Source: an uncultured Collinsella sp. (GTDB taxonomy: Bacteria; Actinomycetota; Coriobacteriia; Coriobacteriales; Coriobacteriaceae). Taken from it: DNA of 12,430 nt. Below are positions 2,392-12,430 of the stretch, piece by piece. The first letter of the stretch is position 1, and each line of letters begins with the position of its first letter. The DNA lies in NCBI GenBank assembly GCA_902465105.1, contig CABQLM010000060.1:1-12430 (forward strand). The letters run 5' to 3'. The notes under the pieces were generated by a model that saw only the letters and a program-made list of their open reading frames with translations, did no database searches and was not told where the DNA came from. Made by a program: the position numbers and the translations under genes.

Positions 2392-4515
2392 ATGAACAAC
2401 CAGGCAAACGATGCCATCACCGATGCTGGCAAGGACCTTGTCCTCAGCTGCATCAAGAGTCAAGAGCTGCGCGACCACATGCGTAAATACCTATACTGGC
2501 CAGCGCCGATCATCGCCGGGTCGCTGAAGACACTTGACGAAAAGCGCGCCATGCTCAAGCAACTTCGCGAAGAGGTCACATCGGAGCTCATCGAAGATAT
2601 CGATTCGCATCTCGCCCAGCTCAACAGCGCGATCGACATGCTCGACAACGTCGAACGCAATCGTGGAATCCTCCTGCTATACGTCATGTTCTACAACGAG
2701 GAGGAGCGTGACGCCGACGCCCTCGACGGTCCCTTCCCCACCGCATCGTGGGACGCCGCGCAAACGCTCATGAAGCGCTACATCGAAGAGTATCCTGACG
2801 ACGACTGGTCCGAATCGTACTGGAAGATCAATCTCTACACCTCGGAAGACCTGCACGAGCATCAAACGGCGCAACCCTCTCTGTCGTTTGCGGCCACCAA
2901 GGACGGCGAGCTTATATTCCTCCGCGATCTGCGCAATCACCGCACCCGCAAATCGCATGTCGAAAGCGCCTGGCGAAACGATAGCAGGCGGTTCTGCGCG
3001 AACAACGAGCCCGTCTACACGCCGTGGACACCGGGCGACATCCTCAAAATCGACGGTCGCCCCTTCGACCACGGGCCTCGCTTTGCCATTGTGCTCGAAA
3101 ACGACTACGAGCACACGCTCCGGGGACAGATCTGGTGCGCAGGGCCTAGCAAAGATCACGGCGTTAAGGAGGGTTCGCTTTCATCCGGCACCTATAGCGA
3201 CAGTCTCCTGGACCCCTTCATCCCCTCCGCCCTCTACACCGCCGAGCGCTACACCGGCGAGCTGCCGGACGACTGCGCTTTTATGCTCGAGCTTTCGCAG
3301 AAGCTGCGTGACGACCCCGACTACGGCAAGCAGTGGTCTGAAGGCTCGGTCGGACACGATTGCCTGCAGCCGTATCGCAAGCCCGCCAGTCAAAGTGAGC
3401 TGGATATTCGTCCGGACATCTTTGAGTTTTTGGACTCGCACAGCATTAAGGAGCATCTTCAACGAATCAACTACGAGCTCACCACACCCGTAGCGGCCTT
3501 CATCGTCGATCGCTCGCATAAAGCGACGCTGCAGCAAAAGCTCGAAGGCTGGCAAAAGATCATCGACAATATGCCCAATTGCACTATGAGCCGCAGAAAT
3601 GGCACGGTCAACATCCCGGACTTCCATGCCTTTCTGCGCAATGTCATCAGGCAGGAGAAACGAAAGCTCGCGCACTTTAAAAGGACGGACGGTCAAAGCC
3701 TGTATTTCTTTGATGACTACTCATGGGACCGGCGCGGGCAGGGCGGCTGTCTTTACGGCCCGTACAGCAGTTATCAAAAGTGCTTCGATGCAATCTGGAA
3801 AGAGCTCGACGGTGACGATCCCAAAGCCATCAGGATCACTCGTCGTCCCATCGACCCAGACGAAGACCACAATGCCGACGACATGGTCTTACTCAATGCG
3901 AACGGCGAAGTAATGTCTTGCGATTACCGCAACAAAAGCGAGTGGGACGAGGCGGGCACCGCCAGCGATTTCGAGGACATGTGGTTTGATATCCCGACGC
4001 CTTTCCATGCCGGAGACATCGTCTGCAACCTCCAACGCCCCGACGAGCCGATGGTGCTGTTTGACCTGCAAACTTGGGGATCCGAACGAGCCGACAAAGA
4101 GCTGGCCTCCTCCGTCTACAAAGAGCGCCTCGTTCAAAAGGCCGACAAGCTATTGCGCTGGCACCGATATGACGGCGACGCCAGCGACATGTACGCCTAC
4201 GGCTGCCAAGTCTCATCCGCCTTGCATTTCCCCTTCTACATTGGGGAGCCTGAGGGCTTTCTTTTGGACATCGACTATTACCGCAAGCCGCTCAAGTCAG
4301 AGGAGCGAATCCTTTACGGCGTCAGGGCATATGTCAAAGGCGACCTGGCGGTTGACTCACTCGCCGCGATGGCCAGCGCAAACGAGCTACAAGCGCTAGC
4401 GGAGAAAAAGGCCCGCGGCTTCGAGGATGCAGACGGTTGGCTCAAGGACCGCTACCCGGAGCTGTTCGATGCGACGATAGACCCTTTGCTAAAGGGAGAT
4501 AGTACCGGTTGCTAG
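2392..4515 (+). CDS. Uncharacterised A-B fusion protein, paralogue 1
   Basis: A 707-residue soluble-looking acidic protein of a family I cannot name. It has two modules. Module A (about 1-335) contains SLKTLDEKRAMLKQLREEV, GPFPTASW and TPWTPGDILKIDGRP (from residue 210 on). Module B (about 342-707) begins PDIFEFLDSHSIKEHL and contains YGPYSSYQKCFDAIW, ITRRPIDPDED and FDIPTPFHAGDIV (from 532). It ends with YRKPLKSEERILYGVRAY and YPELFD. No signal peptide, membrane helix or known catalytic motif is visible. The gene at 5324 encodes a full-length paralogue, roughly 60-65 per cent identical by eye, and the genes at 7459 and 8541 match module B and module A separately. The start at 2392 is preceded by AAGGAGG five bases upstream; the ATG at 2362 has no such site. 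A terminator follows at 4520-4552. Function unknown. Confidence 0.85.
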   Translation: MNNQANDAITDAGKDLVLSCIKSQELRDHMRKYLYWPAPIIAGSLKTLDEKRAMLKQLREEVTSELIEDIDSHLAQLNSAIDMLDNVERNRGILLLYVMFYNEEERDADALDGPFPTASWDAAQTLMKRYIEEYPDDDWSESYWKINLYTSEDLHEHQTAQPSLSFAATKDGELIFLRDLRNHRTRKSHVESAWRNDSRRFCANNEPVYTPWTPGDILKIDGRPFDHGPRFAIVLENDYEHTLRGQIWCAGPSKDHGVKEGSLSSGTYSDSLLDPFIPSALYTAERYTGELPDDCAFMLELSQKLRDDPDYGKQWSEGSVGHDCLQPYRKPASQSELDIRPDIFEFLDSHSIKEHLQRINYELTTPVAAFIVDRSHKATLQQKLEGWQKIIDNMPNCTMSRRNGTVNIPDFHAFLRNVIRQEKRKLAHFKRTDGQSLYFFDDYSWDRRGQGGCLYGPYSSYQKCFDAIWKELDGDDPKAIRITRRPIDPDEDHNADDMVLLNANGEVMSCDYRNKSEWDEAGTASDFEDMWFDIPTPFHAGDIVCNLQRPDEPMVLFDLQTWGSERADKELASSVYKERLVQKADKLLRWHRYDGDASDMYAYGCQVSSALHFPFYIGEPEGFLLDIDYYRKPLKSEERILYGVRAYVKGDLAVDSLAAMASANELQALAEKKARGFEDADGWLKDRYPELFDATIDPLLKGDSTGC

Positions 4516-4585: not shown

Positions 4586-5176
4586 TCAGCGATACCAATC
4601 CTCCAAATTGCGCGACCATGCGTATTCCCAGGTGATCTCTGCGGGAGGTTCGGCGATTTGAAGATAGGCCTCCCACATGAGCATGGCTATTTTCTTGAAC
4701 GGAAGATACCCACATGCTCCACCGAACGCGGGAACCACGATTCGCTGACGCGAAGTTCGCATCGCTTCCATAAGCGTTGTCCTCATGCATTGATAGACAA
4801 CCAAAGGGTCAACGATGGGAGTGGGGACCCGCATGGTTGGAGTATGTATGAGCAGAATGTCCTCGTGCCCGGGAATTGGAACTGAAAAGCTCGTACCAAC
4901 CGGCTGCTCGCCGTAAAACCGCTCCATAATAACCGTTCGCACTCGTTCGGCAAGCTCCGGTCCATACTTATCGGTTATCGCTAGGTCGTAATTGCCATCC
5001 ATCAAGCCATATGAGTTCGCCGGCGATACGACGGCATCGATTTCAGGCTGCTGTTCGACAAACGCCTTAAAATCACAGCAATGCACCGCAATGCCTCTGT
5101 AGCCCCTAAATGTGTCCTCCCAGGCCTCCGCCATACCGGCGCTGTTCGTCACAAGATCCAGCATTATATTCTCCAT
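4586..5176 (-). CDS. Macro-domain protein
   Basis: A 196-residue single-domain protein of the macro (Appr-1''-phosphate processing type) fold, which binds ADP-ribose or related ligands and in some members removes ADP-ribose from proteins or nucleic acids. What can be seen: DAVVSPANSYGLMDGNYD at 47-64 matches loop 1 (usual form VNAANxxLxxGGGVD), with the ligand-binding Asn kept in ANS (54) and the usual glycine run replaced by DGNYD. GTSFSVPI is at 94-101, LLIHTPTM at 108-115, and the glycine-rich loop 2 PAFGGACGYLP is at 149-159. The start at 5176 is supported by AAAGGA five bases upstream; the longer frame from 5278 would run through the promoter and dyad. It sits between the two A/B fusion genes on the opposite strand, convergent with the first and divergent from the second. 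Whether it is a hydrolase or only a reader cannot be told. Confidence 0.85.
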   Translation of the reverse strand: MENIMLDLVTNSAGMAEAWEDTFRGYRGIAVHCCDFKAFVEQQPEIDAVVSPANSYGLMDGNYDLAITDKYGPELAERVRTVIMERFYGEQPVGTSFSVPIPGHEDILLIHTPTMRVPTPIVDPLVVYQCMRTTLMEAMRTSRQRIVVPAFGGACGYLPFKKIAMLMWEAYLQIAEPPAEITWEYAWSRNLEDWYR

Positions 5177-5243: not shown

Positions 5244-5273
5244 TTCATATCAGACCCGTTAATGGGACCACAA
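5244..5273 (-). promoter_or_regulatory. Candidate macro-gene promoter with operator in the spacer
   Basis: On the minus strand TTGTGG (5273-5268) and TATGAA (5249-5244) are 18 bp apart, a plausible -35/-10 pair about 70 bp before the macro start. The dyad read on the plus strand as GACCCGTTAATGGGAC (5253-5268) lies in the spacer and just touches the -35 box, the classic place for a repressor. The same dyad, in the same plus-strand orientation, lies upstream of the first fusion gene, and here it is about 55 bp upstream of the second fusion gene. It could therefore control both divergent genes. Confidence 0.5.
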
Positions 5274-5323
5274 AGCACAACCTCTGATGGATGCTAACGG
5301 CAACGACCGAATTGGAGGTTGCT

Positions 5324-7456
5324 ATGGACAGCCAAGCAGATACCGTGATCACCGATGCCGGCAGGGAGCTCGTTTGCAGTTGCATCAAGGACGATGAGCT
5401 GCGTGTTCATATGTTCAAACACATGGGAATGGCAGATGGCTCCCTCTGTAGAATCATCGGCGGTTCCCTCAAGACGCTCGACGAAAAACGAGCCATGCTC
5501 GAGCAGCTTCGCAAAGAGGTCTCATCGGATTACGCTGAAGCGATTGACTCCGGCCTTGACCAGCTCAACAGCGCGCTCGATATGCTTTACAACGTTGACC
5601 GCGACCACGGTATCTTGCTGGTCTCCGGCATGTTTTACAGTGAAGAGGAGCGCGGGCACGACACCTTTGACGGCCCCTTCCCCGTTGCCTCATGGGGAGC
5701 TGCGCAAACCCTCATGAAGCAATACGTCGATGATGACCCCGATGAAGATTGGTCCGAATCATTCTGGCAGATTAAGCTCTATACCGCCGAAGACTTACAC
5801 GACCGCCCGCGCGCTCAAGCCTCGCTGATATTCGCCGCGACCATGGCTGGCGATTTGGTCTTTTTGAGCGATCGCCGGAATCAGCGGACTCCGCACCAAA
5901 GCATCGATCACTTGCCGTGGAACAATAGCAAGCACTTCTGCGCCAATGGTGAGGTCTTTTACACTCCCTGGGTCCCCGGCGACATCATCAAGATTGACGG
6001 TCGGCCCTTCGATCACGGTCCCCGTTTTGCCATCGTGCTCGAAGACGACTACGATAGCTCGTTCAAAGGCCAGGTTTGGTGCGCCTATCCGAGCAAAATC
6101 TACGGCGTTGAGGAAGGCAATCTCCGCTTGAGGGATTTCACGGACGGCTTCCTCGACGACTTCACGCCCTCTGCCCTCTATACCGCCGAACGTTATACCG
6201 GCGAATTGCCCGATGATTGCTCCTTTATGCTCGAGCTCTCGAAAAAGCTGCACGATGACCCCAGCTACGGCAAACAATGGTCGGACGGATCGGTCGTACA
6301 CGACTGCCTGCAGCCATACCGCACATCGGCCGGTCCCAGTGCCAACGCTATACGTTCGGACATTCTCGAGTTTCTCGACTCGCCTGACATCAAGGAGCAT
6401 TTGAGAGACATCGGCTACGAGTTCACCACGTCCGAGGCGGCATTTATTGTTGCCCGTTCGAACGAAAAGGCGCTACGGCAGAAGATCAAGGGCTGGCAAA
6501 AGATTATCAACAACATGCCCAATTGTGCGATGAACAGGCGATACGGCACGTTCAATATCCCCAACTTCCATGTCTTTCTTCGCGACGTCATCAGATGGGA
6601 GCGCAAGAAAATCGCCCGGTTCAAACAGCCTGGCAAGCACATGTATTTCTTTGAGGACAAGACGGGAAGTCCCCATGAGAGCGGGTGCAATTATGGCCCC
6701 TACACCAGCTACGAAAAATGTTTCGAGGCAATCTGGAATGAGCTTGAGGAGGAAAATCCTACCTCGATAGAAATAACGCGCCGCCCGATCGATCCGGACG
6801 AAGACTACTATGCCGCCGACAGGCTCATGCTCAACGCAAAAGGCGAAATTATGGACTGCCAGCTGAGCTGCATCGACATGGAACGCGAGGGCGAAGACCC
6901 CACTTTCGCTTTTGAGTTGATGTGGTTTGACATCCCGACGCCATTCCACGCCGGCGACATCATTTGTCGTCACGACGACCTTGGCGACCCCATGCTGCTT
7001 CTCAATATGCAGACATGGACCACGCAGCGGGTCATGGATGAGCTTCCGCCTTCAACCTACAGGGAATGCGCCGCAAAAAATGCCGACGACCTGCTCAGGC
7101 ACCATCGGCAAAATGGCGATACGAGCGACATGTACGCCTACGGCTGTCAGATTGAATATCCCCTGGAGTACCCCGTCTATATCGGAGAGCCGAGTTGTTT
7201 TCTTCTCGATATGGAATACTGCCGTACCCCGCTCAAGCCGGAGGCGAGAATTCTGTACGGCGTGCGGGCATATCTCGACGGCAATCTGGGTCTTGACTCA
7301 CTTATTGCGCTATCGAGCCTTTACGAGCTGCAGGCGCTGGTCAAGAAAAAAACCGAGCGGTTTGAAGGGGAAGACGGCTGGCTCAAGACCCGCTATCCGG
7401 AGCTGTTCGATGACACGATAGCCCCGCCGGCACGATTCAAAACAAAGAGGAGCTAA
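5324..7456 (+). CDS. Uncharacterised A-B fusion protein, paralogue 2
   Basis: A 710-residue paralogue of the protein at 2392, collinear over its whole length. Module A (about 1-340) has ITDAGRELVCSCIKDDELR near the N-terminus, SLKTLDEKRAMLEQLRKEV, GPFPVASWGAAQTLMK and TPWVPGDIIKIDGRP. Module B (346-710) has SDILEFLDSPDIKEHLRDI, YGPYTSYEKCFEAIWNEL, ITRRPIDPDEDYYAAD and FDIPTPFHAGDII. Both modules share a pattern: a helical xLREHL-like start, a GPF/GPY-aromatic helix, then an aromatic-PTP/TPW-GDI turn. No signal peptide, membrane segment or recognised catalytic motif. The start at 5324 has GGAGG six bases upstream; the upstream ATG at 5291 has none. The stop lies two bases before the next ATG, and the last codons supply the ribosome site GAGGAG for that gene, so translation is probably coupled. 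First gene of a three-gene operon. Function unknown. Confidence 0.85.
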   Translation: MDSQADTVITDAGRELVCSCIKDDELRVHMFKHMGMADGSLCRIIGGSLKTLDEKRAMLEQLRKEVSSDYAEAIDSGLDQLNSALDMLYNVDRDHGILLVSGMFYSEEERGHDTFDGPFPVASWGAAQTLMKQYVDDDPDEDWSESFWQIKLYTAEDLHDRPRAQASLIFAATMAGDLVFLSDRRNQRTPHQSIDHLPWNNSKHFCANGEVFYTPWVPGDIIKIDGRPFDHGPRFAIVLEDDYDSSFKGQVWCAYPSKIYGVEEGNLRLRDFTDGFLDDFTPSALYTAERYTGELPDDCSFMLELSKKLHDDPSYGKQWSDGSVVHDCLQPYRTSAGPSANAIRSDILEFLDSPDIKEHLRDIGYEFTTSEAAFIVARSNEKALRQKIKGWQKIINNMPNCAMNRRYGTFNIPNFHVFLRDVIRWERKKIARFKQPGKHMYFFEDKTGSPHESGCNYGPYTSYEKCFEAIWNELEEENPTSIEITRRPIDPDEDYYAADRLMLNAKGEIMDCQLSCIDMEREGEDPTFAFELMWFDIPTPFHAGDIICRHDDLGDPMLLLNMQTWTTQRVMDELPPSTYRECAAKNADDLLRHHRQNGDTSDMYAYGCQIEYPLEYPVYIGEPSCFLLDMEYCRTPLKPEARILYGVRAYLDGNLGLDSLIALSSLYELQALVKKKTERFEGEDGWLKTRYPELFDDTIAPPARFKTKRS

Positions 7457-7458
7457 CC

Positions 7459-8532
7459 ATGGACATCTTTGATTTCGTTGACTCCCGGGACATTCGGGAG
7501 CACCTGCGTAGTATCGACTTCCAGCCCAGCACCATCGAGGCCGCCTATCTGGTTTGGTTTTCGAAGACCGCCACGCTCGATCAGAAATGCGAAGCCTGGC
7601 AGGAGATTGCCCGAACCATGCCCAATTGTTCGCTGGAGGCAACCCATGCCGGTCTTGGAAGGCCGGCCATCCCCGATTTCCATGCTTTTTTGCGCTGGAC
7701 AATCGATTACAACAAGCGCTGCGTCGATGCGTTTGCGAGTGGGACGGGCTACGTTTATCAGTATGAAGAGGAGATTGTGCCCGACGGGCAACTTTGTGGG
7801 GCCTTCGGCGCGCCATTCAGCTGTTATGAGAAATGTGCCGAGGCGTTGCGCGGTGATGATGAACTGGCGAGCCGTCCAGAGGCACGCGCACGCATCACCC
7901 GGTGCCCGCTCGATATCGATGAAGCTCATCGCCGGGAAGATTGGCTCATGGTGAACGGCAAAGGCGAGGTTCTTTCCGTCTATTGTCCTTCCGCCGGCCC
8001 CGTTGAGAACGATTGGGAGATCGCATTCGAGTTCATCTGGGTCGATATCCCCACGCCGTTTCACACCGGCGACATCGTCTGGACGCCGCAAGGCAGTGCC
8101 CGTGAGCCGTTCACGTTGTTCGATCTGTCCACGTGGGACCGGACAAAGCTTGAGGCAGAGCTTCGGCAGGCAGACCGTTCTGACGAATGGCTTGATCATG
8201 CGCAGCAACGCCTCGAGCACTATCGCCATGCAGGGGATATCAGCAACATGCGTGCCACTGGCTGCTCGATTACCTACAACGAGACGTTTCCCCTCTACAT
8301 CGGAGAGCCGGACCCGCTTTACCTGAATCTTGAGTACTATCGCAAACCACTCGAAGACGAGCAGCGGATTTTAGTCGCAGCCCAGGCCTACCTGCGCGGC
8401 GACCTGTATGTCGACTCACTCATCGCGTTTATCGACACCATAAGGATGGAGTCCAAGGCAAAACGCAACCTAGAAGAGCTGCGTCTTGATCAGGCGCCGC
8501 TCAAGGAAAAGTATCCGCAGTTATTTGAATAG
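7459..8532 (+). CDS. Stand-alone module-B protein
   Basis: A 357-residue protein matching the second half of both fusion proteins from its first residue: MDIFDFVDSRDIREHL aligns with PDIFEFLDSHSIKEHL and SDILEFLDSPDIKEHL. Other shared blocks are TLDQKCEAWQEIARTMPNC, IPDFHAFLRW, the helix after PFSCYEKCAEAL, ITRCPLDIDEAH, VDIPTPFHTGDIV, YIGEP and YYRKPLEDEQRIL. The C-terminus ends at YPQLFE, the equivalent of YPELFD in the fusions, so it is complete rather than a broken copy. ATG at 7459 has GAGGAG overlapping the previous stop. The next gene starts eight bases after its stop. It is clearly more distant from the fusion B modules than these are from each other. No membrane or secretion signal. 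Function unknown; stoichiometric partnership with the following gene is an inference from the operon. Confidence 0.85.
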   Translation: MDIFDFVDSRDIREHLRSIDFQPSTIEAAYLVWFSKTATLDQKCEAWQEIARTMPNCSLEATHAGLGRPAIPDFHAFLRWTIDYNKRCVDAFASGTGYVYQYEEEIVPDGQLCGAFGAPFSCYEKCAEALRGDDELASRPEARARITRCPLDIDEAHRREDWLMVNGKGEVLSVYCPSAGPVENDWEIAFEFIWVDIPTPFHTGDIVWTPQGSAREPFTLFDLSTWDRTKLEAELRQADRSDEWLDHAQQRLEHYRHAGDISNMRATGCSITYNETFPLYIGEPDPLYLNLEYYRKPLEDEQRILVAAQAYLRGDLYVDSLIAFIDTIRMESKAKRNLEELRLDQAPLKEKYPQLFE

Positions 8533-8540
8533 AGGTCGTC

Positions 8541-9575
8541 ATGTCCGAATCCACGAGGGGCTACGCCGATAACCCGGAGACTATCGTGCACAAAGAAATA
8601 ATCAACCTGATCGAATCTCCGGAGCTGCGAGAGCATTTGCTGCATAATCCGCAGCTCCTGAGTGGTGATCATTACATGCAGATTGTCGGCGGAGCACCGG
8701 TTGAAATTACCCGCAAACGAGAGCTACTCGGCAGACTGGTTGCTGACGGGTGCAACTCGTCAGACAACACCCTTTACTGGCACTATCGGCAGATTTGCAT
8801 CGACTATATCGATGGCTGTCTAGACGCGCTAAAGACCGTCGACGGAAACAAGAAAATGCTGCTTGTCAGCGAAATTAGCTTTATCGACAGCGAAGTTGGA
8901 TCTGCGATCACGCATGGCCCCTTCCCTGTGGCGTCGTGGGCAGACGCTCTGGCGGCAATGAAGGCATACGCGGACAAGTGGAGCGAAATGACAGATCTAT
9001 CGTCCTCATACTGGATGATCGAGCTGTTCAACCTTGCCAACGACCCGAGCTGTTCATATCCATACGACGGCTTTCTACAGCCAGACTACACTTACTACGC
9101 AAACGCCTCCGGCGAAATCCAATACATCTGCAGGGAAGAAGAGGGCGAATGTGGCGAGGTGCTCGACTGCATTGTGGGTGGAATCTTTGACCCGTGGTTC
9201 AAGGGGGCATATGTCGACCTGCCCACGCCGTACAGAAAGGGCGACATTCTTGAGATCGACTGCCGGCCATGGGCGCCGGGACCTTGCTATTGTCTGGTAG
9301 CAAACTCGAAATTGGACTGTCTGTATCCCGATGGCGATGGGCAGATCAGATGTGGCTCTATCCCCTACGGCAGTTGCTTTGCCGGATGGGCGCATACGAA
9401 CCTGATGCTGTCGCCTGTGTTCAGGGCGAGAAAAGCAACGCAACCTTTGCCGGAAGCATGCGCAACCTTACAAGCGATCGGGTTGGACCGGATAGATAAC
9501 TTACTAGAAGCGTGCACCGACAACATAGAGGAAGAGCCTGCTTGGCTGAATATATATCGGCATCGTGCTCGATGA
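8541..9575 (+). CDS. Stand-alone module-A protein, cysteine-rich
   Basis: A 344-residue protein matching the first half of the fusion proteins: ESPELREHLL near the N-terminus, THGPFPVASWADALAAMK, SSYWMIELFNL and LPTPYRKGDILEIDCRPWAP. In wording the PTP-GDI block is closer to module B (IPTPFHAGDIV) than the A modules of the fusions are, which links A and B as one family. It has 15 cysteines, many more than its relatives, including C197, C204 and C210 in a glutamate-rich loop and the CYC of GPCYCLV; no standard zinc-site spacing is seen. The start at 8541 has GAGG six bases upstream, eight bases after the module-B stop. Last gene of the operon; the terminator at 9776 lies 200 bp on. Function unknown. 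Confidence 0.83.
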   Translation: MSESTRGYADNPETIVHKEIINLIESPELREHLLHNPQLLSGDHYMQIVGGAPVEITRKRELLGRLVADGCNSSDNTLYWHYRQICIDYIDGCLDALKTVDGNKKMLLVSEISFIDSEVGSAITHGPFPVASWADALAAMKAYADKWSEMTDLSSSYWMIELFNLANDPSCSYPYDGFLQPDYTYYANASGEIQYICREEEGECGEVLDCIVGGIFDPWFKGAYVDLPTPYRKGDILEIDCRPWAPGPCYCLVANSKLDCLYPDGDGQIRCGSIPYGSCFAGWAHTNLMLSPVFRARKATQPLPEACATLQAIGLDRIDNLLEACTDNIEEEPAWLNIYRHRAR

Positions 9576-9775: not shown

Positions 9776-9813
9776 AAATAGCCCTCGCCCAAAAGGTGGG
9801 ACGAGGGCTATTT
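9776..9813. terminator. Bidirectional intrinsic terminator
   Basis: A perfect 12-bp inverted repeat, AAATAGCCCTCG (9776-9787) and CGAGGGCTATTT (9802-9813), whose AT-rich ends give A/T tracts on both strands. The 14-nt loop can add a CCC/GGG pairing. It lies between the convergent operon ending at 9575 and the minus-strand gene ending at 9836. Confidence 0.85.
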
Positions 9814-9835: not shown

Positions 9836-10828
9836 CTAATAATCGATTGAAGCCAAAGCCTGCTTGATACGCTTGCCGCTTGCACCCTTGAAGTAATACC
9901 AAATCAACCGGTCAACTTTGCGGTAGCCAATTTCACCATTCTGATCATTTTCAGAGCGCCATGTATTGATACCCTCGAGAACAGCGTCGTACAACTTCCT
10001 GTATTTGGTATATCCATCATCTTCTTTTTTGTAATTCTCGATTGTACTTACGAGTTCTTGGCTGCCCTTGGCCCCCTTTATCCTCTTCATCCTGCAGCAG
10101 TCCAAGCTAGCAAGTTCCCCGCTCGCATAGTTATCCACGAAATATGGGAAAACGCTGGCGACGACTTTATCGTAAATGCAATACTTATCGCCCAACTCCA
10201 AATACTGGCAAGTCCAATGGCAAAACTTTGTGGCAAACGAGAAATTATTCTTGTTAACATCTGCCACATGAGCCTCATTCAGGTAGGTTTTCGAAGCTTT
10301 CGAAATGTCGGTGACAAGCTGGTCGTCGCCTACGCTTAACCTCTCCCTAAGCCCTTCGATGCCAGCAATAATCTGAGACGTAAAAAGTACACCACCGGTT
10401 ATCGTCTTTTCCCCTTCACCATCATCGGACATTTTCTCCACGGTCATTGGCTTCAGATCGAGCTTTTTCATGATGTCGTCGACTTTATGTCTACCAACGG
10501 CAGTTAAATGGGTCGAGTTTTCATTGTCAATTTCGTAAACCACTCTTCCTATGCATGCCATTCGCTCATGCGCATCGCCAACAAACATGCCTTTGAATAT
10601 TTCGCGGACCTCATCTTTATCCGTCTGGTTGTAATTCGAGTCGTTCTCAACCATGCCGTTGACAAAGGCGATGTTTTTATCCGTAAAAAGAGGCACGCCG
10701 TTCTGGTCCAGGTCAAACTGATATGGGTCAGCCGTTCGCTCCGCATCTTTCACGTAAGGCATCACCATTTTATTTACGCCATTGACCTCTTCCATCACCG
10801 GATTAAAAAACATTTCTTGACGACTCAT
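9836..10828 (-). CDS. Hypothetical protein, AT-richer orphan gene
   Basis: A 330-residue soluble-looking protein, not recognised as a named family. The N-terminal 150 residues are acidic and variable-looking. The C-terminal half holds NNFSFATKFCHW (194-205), YCIYDKVVASVFPYF (216-230) and YRKVDRLIWYYFKG (301-314). This combination, FATK-aromatic, then IYD, then D-x-x-x-W near the end, recalls uncharacterised helical proteins seen in accessory regions; that is from memory and gives no function. The start at 10828 is chosen because AAGGAG lies five bases upstream; the ATG at 10858 has no ribosome site. The gene is visibly lower in G+C than its neighbours, with many AAA, AAT and GAT codons, which suggests separate acquisition. 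It follows the DnaB-like gene by 161 bp, so it may have its own promoter. Confidence 0.72.
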   Translation of the reverse strand: MSRQEMFFNPVMEEVNGVNKMVMPYVKDAERTADPYQFDLDQNGVPLFTDKNIAFVNGMVENDSNYNQTDKDEVREIFKGMFVGDAHERMACIGRVVYEIDNENSTHLTAVGRHKVDDIMKKLDLKPMTVEKMSDDGEGEKTITGGVLFTSQIIAGIEGLRERLSVGDDQLVTDISKASKTYLNEAHVADVNKNNFSFATKFCHWTCQYLELGDKYCIYDKVVASVFPYFVDNYASGELASLDCCRMKRIKGAKGSQELVSTIENYKKEDDGYTKYRKLYDAVLEGINTWRSENDQNGEIGYRKVDRLIWYYFKGASGKRIKQALASIDY

Positions 10829-10989
10829 GTGAACTCCTTCCCAGAGCTGTTCAGACATACCGCCGACAGAACGTAACGCCTAATAGTGATGATAATTCTT
10901 GACCCGCCCAAGTTTCTCTTTGGCTGTTGAACGGTCACTTTCTGCTAGCAAACGCGCTGCTAGCCGAGCAGTTGTTATTGGTCATGACC
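10829..10989. promoter_or_regulatory. Intergenic region with palindromes before the orphan gene
   Basis: A 161-bp gap between two minus-strand genes. It has the perfect 10-bp palindrome GGTCATGACC at 10980-10989, directly after the DnaB-like stop. It also has two copies of the palindromic GCTAGC, at 10946-10951 and 10961-10966, part of a repeated 8-mer. These could be operator half-sites or a weak terminator. An AT-rich patch near 10880-10900 could hold the promoter of the orphan gene, but no convincing -35/-10 pair is seen. Confidence 0.35.
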
Positions 10990-11823
10990 TCAACCGAAGA
11001 CTCGTGCGCAGGAAGGCTCCATGCCATCGGCACTCATGCGGACGAGGGCATCTGCGTTGCAATGAGCCTCGGCGAACGTTGCGTCGTCCTCTCTGCCCTC
11101 TGCCGCAAAGCAACCTGCCAGAATGGCGGATGTTGGGCCGAGCATGTTACGTAAGTCGCGCAGGATCGCATTTATCGGACGGTTGTCGTCGAGCATTTCG
11201 AGCCCGTCGATTACGACCACGATGTCCTTTAGCGCCGCCCTGCTCCACGTTTGGTCGCCGAGCAGCCAACTCGTTAAAAGGTCTATGGTCATGTTATCTT
11301 CGACAAAGATGCCCAGGCTGCGCTGCTTGATCCGCATCGTTGCGCGGACCGTCTCAACCTGTTGTTCCTCAAGATCTTTCGGCACCTTGGCCCCCATCTC
11401 GGCTCGAATCAGCCGGGCGACCGCATCCTCTTCACGCTCCCGCATCGGCACGTAAAGCACAGTGCACTGCTCGCTCAGGCATAAAACCGCATGCGCCAGT
11501 ACGTTCGAAACGTCTTCATGCGCGCCGCCAATCACGCTAAGCTTGCCTAGTCCAATACCGCCGCCCAGGATGTCATCAACAGGCATACCAGTCTTCAATA
11601 CCTGCAGGACCTCGAACACCGATGTTTCCATGGCATGATCGAGCCCGGAAGTCAGTCGATCATGGAAACGGCTTATGTCAAAGCCGTCATCGCCCCGTTC
11701 TTCACGAATCCAACCACGCTGGCTCGCATCTATCGGCGGCATCACGCCTGATAGGCCCAGCATCTCGCCCATGCTCACAGAGTGTCCAATTCGGTCATCC
11801 CTGGAGTCCATCTTTCGCGTCAT
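10990..11823 (-). CDS. DnaB/RecA-like protein with degenerate Walker A motif
   Basis: A 277-residue protein whose middle and C-terminal parts follow the RecA-type ATPase domain of DnaB-like helicases. TGMPVDDILGGG at 78-89 matches the DnaB TGxxxLDxxxGG entry. The following strand reaches LSVIGG, where DnaB has a P-loop of the type GxxSxGKT; here it reads GGAHEDVSN (99-107), without the Gly-Lys-Thr needed for ATP. The hydrophobic strand VVVIDGLEML at 202-211 is a good Walker B with Asp206. The DnaB glutamine sensor region is replaced by ILAGCFAAEG. The N-terminal 70 residues are not recognised and there is no primase-binding domain. It is therefore probably a pseudo-ATPase or adaptor rather than a helicase. 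The start at 11823 has AGGAGGG five bases upstream (11829-11835), which overlaps the rtcB stop. Probably co-transcribed and translationally coupled with rtcB. The exact family is uncertain. Confidence 0.75.
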   Translation of the reverse strand: MTRKMDSRDDRIGHSVSMGEMLGLSGVMPPIDASQRGWIREERGDDGFDISRFHDRLTSGLDHAMETSVFEVLQVLKTGMPVDDILGGGIGLGKLSVIGGAHEDVSNVLAHAVLCLSEQCTVLYVPMREREEDAVARLIRAEMGAKVPKDLEEQQVETVRATMRIKQRSLGIFVEDNMTIDLLTSWLLGDQTWSRAALKDIVVVIDGLEMLDDNRPINAILRDLRNMLGPTSAILAGCFAAEGREDDATFAEAHCNADALVRMSADGMEPSCARVFG

Positions 11824-11833
11824 CGCAACCCTC

Positions 11834-12430
11834 CTAACGCCTACCGCGCTTACCAGTAGCCTTAAAATTCCAAATCGGCTTGAGTCGGTGAATAACATCG
11901 ACCGTCGGGTCCATGAGTCTCAGTACATCATCCGCAGGCTTATACGCTTCGGGCGACTCATCGAGCGTCGTCTCGCATGCGCTCGGACAGTAGATGCCGG
12001 CATCGCGCATCTCGTTAACGAACGACCTGGTATCGAGCGTTTGGAACGCTTTGGTGCGGCTCATCGCACGACCCGTCCCATGCGGCGCCGAGCAGTTCCA
12101 GTCCTCGTTTCCCTTGCCGCGCGCAATAACGGCACCGTCGCGCATATTAAACGGAATCAGCACCATCTCTCCCGCATGAGCGCTAATGGCGCCCTTGCGA
12201 ATCATGCCGCCTTCCGAGATGTAGTTGTGCATGGTGGTAAAGCCGTCTCCGTTGAGTCGAATTCCCGTACGCTCAACAATCTGCGCGACAATCGCCTTGC
12301 GGTTCTGATTCGAGAAGCGTTGGCAGTTATGCATATCGACGAGATACTCGGCAGAAAGATCTCCCACGAGATACTTAAGCTCGTCGGGGATATCTGCCAT
12401 ACACGTCTTCTGCGCCAGCGCCTGATGGTG
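11834..12430 (-). CDS. rtcB: RNA-splicing ligase RtcB, C-terminal part (cut by window edge)
   Basis: The frame stays open to the window edge, so the gene starts outside; 198 residues are present, about half of a normal RtcB. RtcB is a GTP- and manganese-dependent ligase that joins RNA 3'-phosphate or 2',3'-cyclic phosphate ends to 5'-hydroxyl ends. Seen here: NCQRFSNQNRKAIV, TMHNYISEGG with a likely metal-binding His-Asn, IRKGAISAHAGE, VIARGKGNEDWNCS, and APHGTGRAMSRTKAF. In the last, the His (codon at 12080-12082) matches the histidine that becomes guanylylated; the usual HGAGR is HGTGR here. The internal ATG at 12400 is not a likely start because homology runs past it. All seen catalytic motifs are intact. 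The DnaB-like gene follows immediately. Its partners upstream are not visible, so it cannot be told whether it is a tRNA-repair or stress-linked copy. Confidence 0.93.
   Translation of the reverse strand, partial: HHQALAQKTCMADIPDELKYLVGDLSAEYLVDMHNCQRFSNQNRKAIVAQIVERTGIRLNGDGFTTMHNYISEGGMIRKGAISAHAGEMVLIPFNMRDGAVIARGKGNEDWNCSAPHGTGRAMSRTKAFQTLDTRSFVNEMRDAGIYCPSACETTLDESPEAYKPADDVLRLMDPTVDVIHRLKPIWNFKATGKRGRR

Follow-up and report, generated by a model that had tools for sequence, protein, structure and literature searches.

The window analysed here, a stretch of 12 430 nucleotides from an uncultured Collinsella sp., carries six domain copies in a row, arranged in the gene order A-B, A-B, B, A. 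Judged by profile comparison, A and B are remote homologues along nearly their whole length, which makes the array six copies of one family. The best overall explanation, to which we would give an even chance of being right, is a one-family array within a WYL regulon, the products of which would be non-enzymatic binding modules induced by damage or phage. A permuted fusion by itself is an ordinary result of duplication and fusion in an array of paralogues; the value of the finding is that it exposes a family lying outside Pfam, NCBIfam, PHROGs and PADLOC and tied to WYL regulators, and that a predicted operator makes the regulon directly testable.

Layout of the array and the relation of A to B

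The first gene, AB1 (2395-4515, forward strand), is a fusion of an A half (2395-3414) and a B half (3415-4512), with AAGGAGG in front of its ATG at 2395. It is followed on the same strand by the second fusion, AB2 (5324-7456; 710 amino acids; A half 5324-6358, B half 6359-7453), by the stand-alone B gene B3 (7459-8532; 357 amino acids) and by the stand-alone A gene A4 (8541-9575; 344 amino acids), the last two being assigned by BLASTP on the separate halves. GGAGG precedes the AB2 start codon at 5324 and is missing before an in-frame ATG at 5291. The AB2 stop and the B3 start are 2 nt apart and the B3 stop and the A4 start 8 nt apart, with a purine-rich site before each start. The first-pass annotation, in which a 710-residue A-B protein precedes complete B and A genes with their own ribosome sites, is borne out by these reading frames, starts and sites, and its placing of the stand-alone B at the fusion junction agrees with the alignment of residue 2 of B3 with residue 1 of the excised B half. 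A 15-bp hairpin (9776-9813, reported on the reverse strand) between the array and a converging gene (9836-10858) is a likely terminator, found in a scan that was overall no richer in hairpins than shuffled sequences.

The two fusions are 62.7% identical in the A half and 57.8% in the B half. B3 matches B1 and B2 at 41% and 37% identity by BLASTP (E about 1e-80 and 1e-76; shuffle z 106-107), and A4 matches A1 and A2 at 24-27% (E 1e-19 to 1e-24; shuffle z 34-35). The earlier concern that the lone A might be nearer to B than to A came out negative: against the three B domains, A4 reached E values of 0.01-0.08 by BLASTP and 0.0015-0.005 by phmmer, with a shuffle z of 5.9-6.6. A1 and A2 gave z values of -0.7 to 2.2 against B, and single sequences of A and B are thus barely alike. 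Their profiles, however, aligned collinearly over 278 columns with an hhalign probability of 98.2% (E 2.7e-14), compared with a maximum of 0.9% for one reversed, ten column-shuffled and three unrelated control profiles; an earlier, smaller comparison of A and B profiles had given 92.9%. The fusion therefore joins two paralogous copies of one domain, and the reading of A and B as two different modules gives way to homology nearly from end to end. A mixed alignment of the fusions with A-only and B-only sequences was left unused, its invariant columns suggesting that A rows had fallen under the B half. The alignment labelled A2 included P0104, the record of which carries a WCX domain, and weak 'A' matches about 4.6 kb from the array were discarded as being the WYL gene.

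No family match to AB1, AB2, B3 or A4 was obtained in Pfam, NCBIfam, PHROGs or PADLOC, the sole signal being a sub-threshold DUF3195 hit to A4 (E 0.07). Nothing recognizable as the family or its arrangement appeared among the literature matches listed, in a search that had subscription papers mostly outside its scope. B3 found no match among plasmids; viral contigs gave no match to A and a single match to B, taken to be the contig of locus L013.

The four-gene order is common to the window and to four further Collinsella loci (L001-L004), all of which have a counterpart of AB1; AB2 is broken in L002 (L002:6281-8444). Some locus and genome entries are the same contigs (L001 and G034; L002, G001 and G044; L004 and G033), so that the independent Collinsella arrays number five, the window included. 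Few Collinsella species have the array: among 43 genomes of the genus, four match the B profile, with the array in G001, G033 and G034 and one distant B in G041. A tree was made by a quick method without bootstrap, with long branches flagged by the tool, from the 117 domains kept after leaving out L104-L106 and any domain that spanned under 240 positions of the model; in it, 21 A domains separate from 96 B domains (value 99) and Clostridia members occur in both, from which it follows that A and B parted before Collinsella. Collinsella B3 is the sister (99) of the fused domains B1 and B2, and these in turn divide by position (99 each). The fused A domains also group together (100); within this group the A2 copies make up a clade, unlike those of A1, and A4 falls among the A domains. 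Most simply, the fusion preceded the duplication that gave AB1 and AB2. Under the favoured explanation, A and B would be two old branches of one undescribed family of approximately 340-residue domains, also neighbours outside Collinsella; one A-B pair would have fused and the fusion would have been duplicated, with B3 and A4 staying separate.

The array is conserved and under purifying selection. The dN/dS ratios are 0.14-0.22 for AB1, 0.21-0.30 for AB2 (four genomes, L002 left out), 0.12-0.19 for B3 and 0.12-0.25 for A4, and A4 evolves faster than B3 (85-95% against 94-96% identity over five genomes). These ratios, within 0.12-0.30 in all four genes, argue against reading the array as the debris of duplications within a gene-rich island, its copies lacking any joint function. 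The split AB2 of L002, the family variants that have lost internal parts or carry foreign ends and the swapping of flanking genes between strains would fit such debris, but across the five genomes the copies at each of the positions B1, B2, B3, A2 and A4 group together (A1 does not form a clade) and a palindrome is retained at both fusion genes, and we consider debris very improbable.

The shared palindrome and the Collinsella neighbourhood

This 16-bp palindrome, GWCCCRTTAAYGGGWC, stands as an exact match before AB2 (5253-5268), where it is also 5' of a diverging macro-domain gene, and with one mismatch before AB1 (2321-2336); in L001-L004 both sites are exact, that of AB1 at the same place. 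In these four loci it also precedes the WYL gene with one mismatch, within the region in which this gene diverges from rtcB. The distance from site to start codon is 58 nt for AB1, 55 nt for AB2 and 46 nt for the WYL gene (L003). When one mismatch at most was allowed, four sites were found in G001 (2.1 Mb), three in G033 and four in G034, three in each being those of AB1, AB2 and the WYL gene, whereas the reversed pattern used as a control gave one site in G033 and none in G001 or G034. Of five further genomes tried from the genus, G002 had one site and the remaining four had none. The force of the observation lies in these whole genomes: in the window alone, a shorter core, with two mismatches allowed, matches three times where 1.26 would be expected, which is not unusual. 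A direct-repeat search found similar DNA 5' of AB1 and AB2 (family D9, 71% over 34 nt) containing the palindrome, and 10 of the 28 invariant columns in an alignment of eight upstream regions (six of fusion genes and two of WYL genes) fall within the site. Because the AB1 and AB2 sites may stem from one duplication, the WYL copy is the independent witness. Just 5' of the AB1 site, GTCCCAATAACG at 2292-2307 matches the palindrome of the WYL gene in its first 12 letters; it is a possible second half-site, with four mismatches to the consensus, as in several chance sites.

The WYL repressor CapW is known to bind such palindromes (PMC9122588), and the WYL repressor BrxR to bind inverted repeats (PMC9122601). 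Since both operons share the palindrome with the WYL gene, AB1 and AB2-B3-A4 probably belong to one WYL regulon, with the palindrome as the proposed operator; the site is seen in the DNA and its binding is what we infer. The rtcB gene would come under the same WYL control, and the array may be switched on together with this RNA-repair gene by the WYL-type regulator. The sharing of a palindrome by regulator and target promoters was observed in Collinsella; a search extended to WYL and B promoters in Clostridia missed the Collinsella WYL site, probably owing to misplaced start codons.

The window proteins and their gene order match those of L001-L004. Upstream of the array lies a gene resembling glycosyltransferase family 52 (808-1872), just below the Pfam cut-off. 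The macro-domain gene (4586-5176, reverse strand; Pfam PF01661, E 9e-9; start set from the L004 homologue) is located between AB1 and AB2 and diverges from AB2 across the palindrome, as it does in L004 and not in L001-L003. Converging on the array is a gene of unknown function, family f9 (9836-10858, reverse strand), with homologues near B in four loci of Clostridia (L018, L054, L061 and L073). The f9 version in L003 is only 38% identical, and in L001 its slot beside A4 is taken by McrBC (McrB-like AAA_5 and McrC genes, L001:10240-12964). Next is a RadA/DnaB-like gene (10990-11898, reverse strand; NCBIfam RadA E 6e-4, far below the cut-off) with a degenerate Walker A motif; the position reads GGAHEDVSN, so the product is probably no ATPase, and it had no profile link to the Clostridia DnaB genes (0.8%). 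Among the 43 Collinsella genomes, this gene occurs in G001, G033 and G034, with a weak match in G041. The last 198 amino acids of the RNA ligase RtcB are encoded at 11834-12430 on the reverse strand (Pfam PF01139, E 1e-28), where the gene runs off the window end. It is present in all five loci, in one piece in L001-L003 (by tblastn in L002) and frameshifted in L004 (L004:9611-10782). Beyond rtcB, outside the visible window, L001-L004 carry a WYL-type regulator gene, identified by similarity, and a UvrD/PD-(D/E)XK helicase-nuclease gene, both checked with Pfam on the copies in the L002 genome (L104). The WYL gene is found at 96-100% identity in G001, G033 and G034, at 40% in G022 and weakly elsewhere (24 of the 43 genomes in total).

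Co-occurrence of A and B

Fused and separate forms do stand side by side, as the first-pass annotation had it, and AB1 adds a second fusion to the row. The term 'permuted' in that annotation is too strong, given that both gene orders occur among unfused relatives. A precedes B in L009 (overlapping) and L019, B precedes A in L016, L018 and L040, and L026 has the order B B A A. The A-B fusion is present in five of five Collinsella arrays and in none of 76 other loci at a cut of 30 bits, below which A and B matches were dropped from the locus counts (L081-L103 were left out of the gene tables). Among the 76 non-Collinsella B loci, 36 contain at least two family genes, A is near B in six, and B is without A in 70, some of them short contigs; five of the loci without A have weaker A-like matches of 12-27 bits.

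A and B co-occur above chance but not obligatorily. In 299 genomes of one family, strong matches (E < 1e-20) to A were found in six and to B in six, three being shared; A and B are close together in G053 and G202 and on different contigs in G184. Without the centre genome, two genomes are shared between five with A and five with B among 298 (hypergeometric P 0.002). At E 0.001 the counts in the 299 genomes rise to seven and 12, with only part of the candidates scored in some genomes. All 29 genomes chosen for B match B and ten of them match the A profile at E 0.001; of the five non-Collinsella genomes among them with a strong A, four have it within 1 kb of B.

The suggestion that A and B act as partners therefore stands as far as their linkage is concerned and falls as a claim that they act only together. 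In its strict form, the fusion and the separate pair would be two routes to the same obligate A:B complex, for which the fusion in every Collinsella array, the above-chance meeting of A and B and their closeness in the genomes chosen for B speak. However, B mostly occurs without A, three of the six genomes with a strong A lack a strong B and the unfused genes of Clostridia stand in either order, leaving obligate partnership unsupported and, in our judgement, rather unlikely.

Loci outside Collinsella and the likely function

A gene of the WYL cluster, named from its representatives, is present in 34 of the 76 non-Collinsella loci. Over the 70.5 Mb of 29 genomes, the Pfam model detected 73 WYL genes. 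Such a gene lies no more than 8.5 kb from B (start to start) in 16 of the 28 genomes outside Collinsella, against about 0.55 expected (Poisson P 2e-18). One 18-kb stretch per genome was assumed for this expectation, which makes it something of an underestimate where the B genes are scattered; the genomes, which go back to a choice of 30 among 80 loci, mainly ones on long contigs, are not fully independent, several being rabbit-gut MAGs. Other recurrent neighbour clusters, each named by one representative, are AAA+ (21 of 76 loci), DUF2779 (15), metallophosphatase (10), DraG-type (9), rtcB (4) and f9 (4). The f9 families of Collinsella and Clostridia are homologous (profile match 99.1%, E 1.5e-18), so that three gene families, A/B, f9 and WYL, occur together in two phyla.

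Of 237 neighbours within two genes, 133 stood at distance 1, and Pfam was run on the 131 of these that are below 1000 amino acids; AAA was the commonest match, with ten members. Together with the 21 loci of the AAA+ cluster, the representative of which is an AAA_lid_6-type ATPase, this count would suit A/B proteins that are adaptors or substrates of an AAA+ machine and not binders of nucleic acids or ligands, as would the best solved-structure match, the SH3-like barrel of HspQ/YccV, HspQ being reported to enhance the AAA+ protease Lon. The AAA_lid_6-type cluster is, however, absent from all Collinsella loci, and the HspQ match is marginal in score and limited to 12% identity over 77 of 357 residues; a role at an AAA+ machine is distinctly unlikely.

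This match was obtained with the AlphaFold2 model of B3 (mean pLDDT 90.5, pTM 0.89). The AB2 fusion model, made without B-only rows, was poor (pLDDT 61, pTM 0.49) and gave no Foldseek match at E < 0.001; by eye, its A half has secondary structures in a similar order to those of B3 over the N-terminal two thirds. A viral library likewise gave B3 no match at E < 0.001, the top row being a 95-amino-acid Bacillus phage protein (E 0.025, probability 0.99), and profile searches against sequences of solved structures reached only E 0.4-0.78. The modules would consist of a helical N-terminus, an alpha/beta middle, an SH3-like barrel and a long C-terminal helix.

Most likely, the A/B proteins bind other molecules without acting as enzymes and belong to a repair or defence locus under WYL control. 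Damage to nucleic acids or attack by phage would relieve the repression and so lead to their production, and judging from the gene context, damage- or infection-induced binding adaptors would be the most economical mechanism. AB1, AB2, and B3 with A4 could be parallel versions for different ligands, in the service of what RtcB, the macro protein and the RadA-like protein do in the locus. An anti-phage role of the array locus would be in keeping with its context, namely the McrBC genes of L001 and the WYL gene.

In the type of its regulator and in having modules that are exchanged, the locus is reminiscent of defence and repair islands. Loci that combine RtcB with a WYL regulator have been described, and the Collinsella loci share their rtcB gene, diverging from the WYL gene in L001-L004, but have the A/B array in addition; a scan of ten window genes showed no RtcA. 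The BrxR/CapW defence loci are alike in having a WYL gene near the locus (here in the relatives), a palindrome 5' of targets and regulator, and swapped modules such as McrBC; they differ in that the genes bearing the site here encode an undescribed family, and PADLOC had no match among the ten window genes. Systems centred on ADP-ribosylglycohydrolases combine these enzymes with WYL regulators, phosphatases, macro domains and variable extra genes, as outlined in section 3.8 of PMC9503650, in which section no family like A/B was recognized. The DraG-type and metallophosphatase clusters of the relatives and the macro domain of the window recall these systems, but no ADP-ribosylglycohydrolase is found among the ten window genes scanned.

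In 11 loci of Clostridia (L036, L043, L044, L054, L061, L062, L066, L073, L076, L078 and L079), B shares one open reading frame with parts that resemble the alpha subunit of DNA polymerase III, in some cases including a PHP domain; these parts were confirmed by Pfam in L036, L043, L054 and L073 and assigned by similarity in the remainder. Some of these frames retain the PDID motif, which we take to be catalytic, whereas in others it is changed or was not detected. In Clostridia, B is also fused to a DnaB C-terminal domain (L080:406-2349) and to an ASCH domain (L041:7836-9539). As a tentative and somewhat improbable extension, A and B may be modular adaptors in gut-bacterial WYL loci, through which a signal of damage or phage reaches either RNA-repair and ADP-ribose enzymes or a reduced replication machinery (PHP and PolIII-alpha fragments, DnaB). 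The Collinsella array, with its mixture of fused and split genes, would then make a number of different A:B complexes out of a single set of operons.

Two further observations concern single proteins. An 830-amino-acid protein encoded next to B and A genes (L018:10167-12656) combines a DnaG-type CHC2 zinc finger with PHP and PolIII alpha fragments. In addition, the A-type proteins P0114 and P0115 carry PF14206, presumably the Cys-rich CPCC domain.
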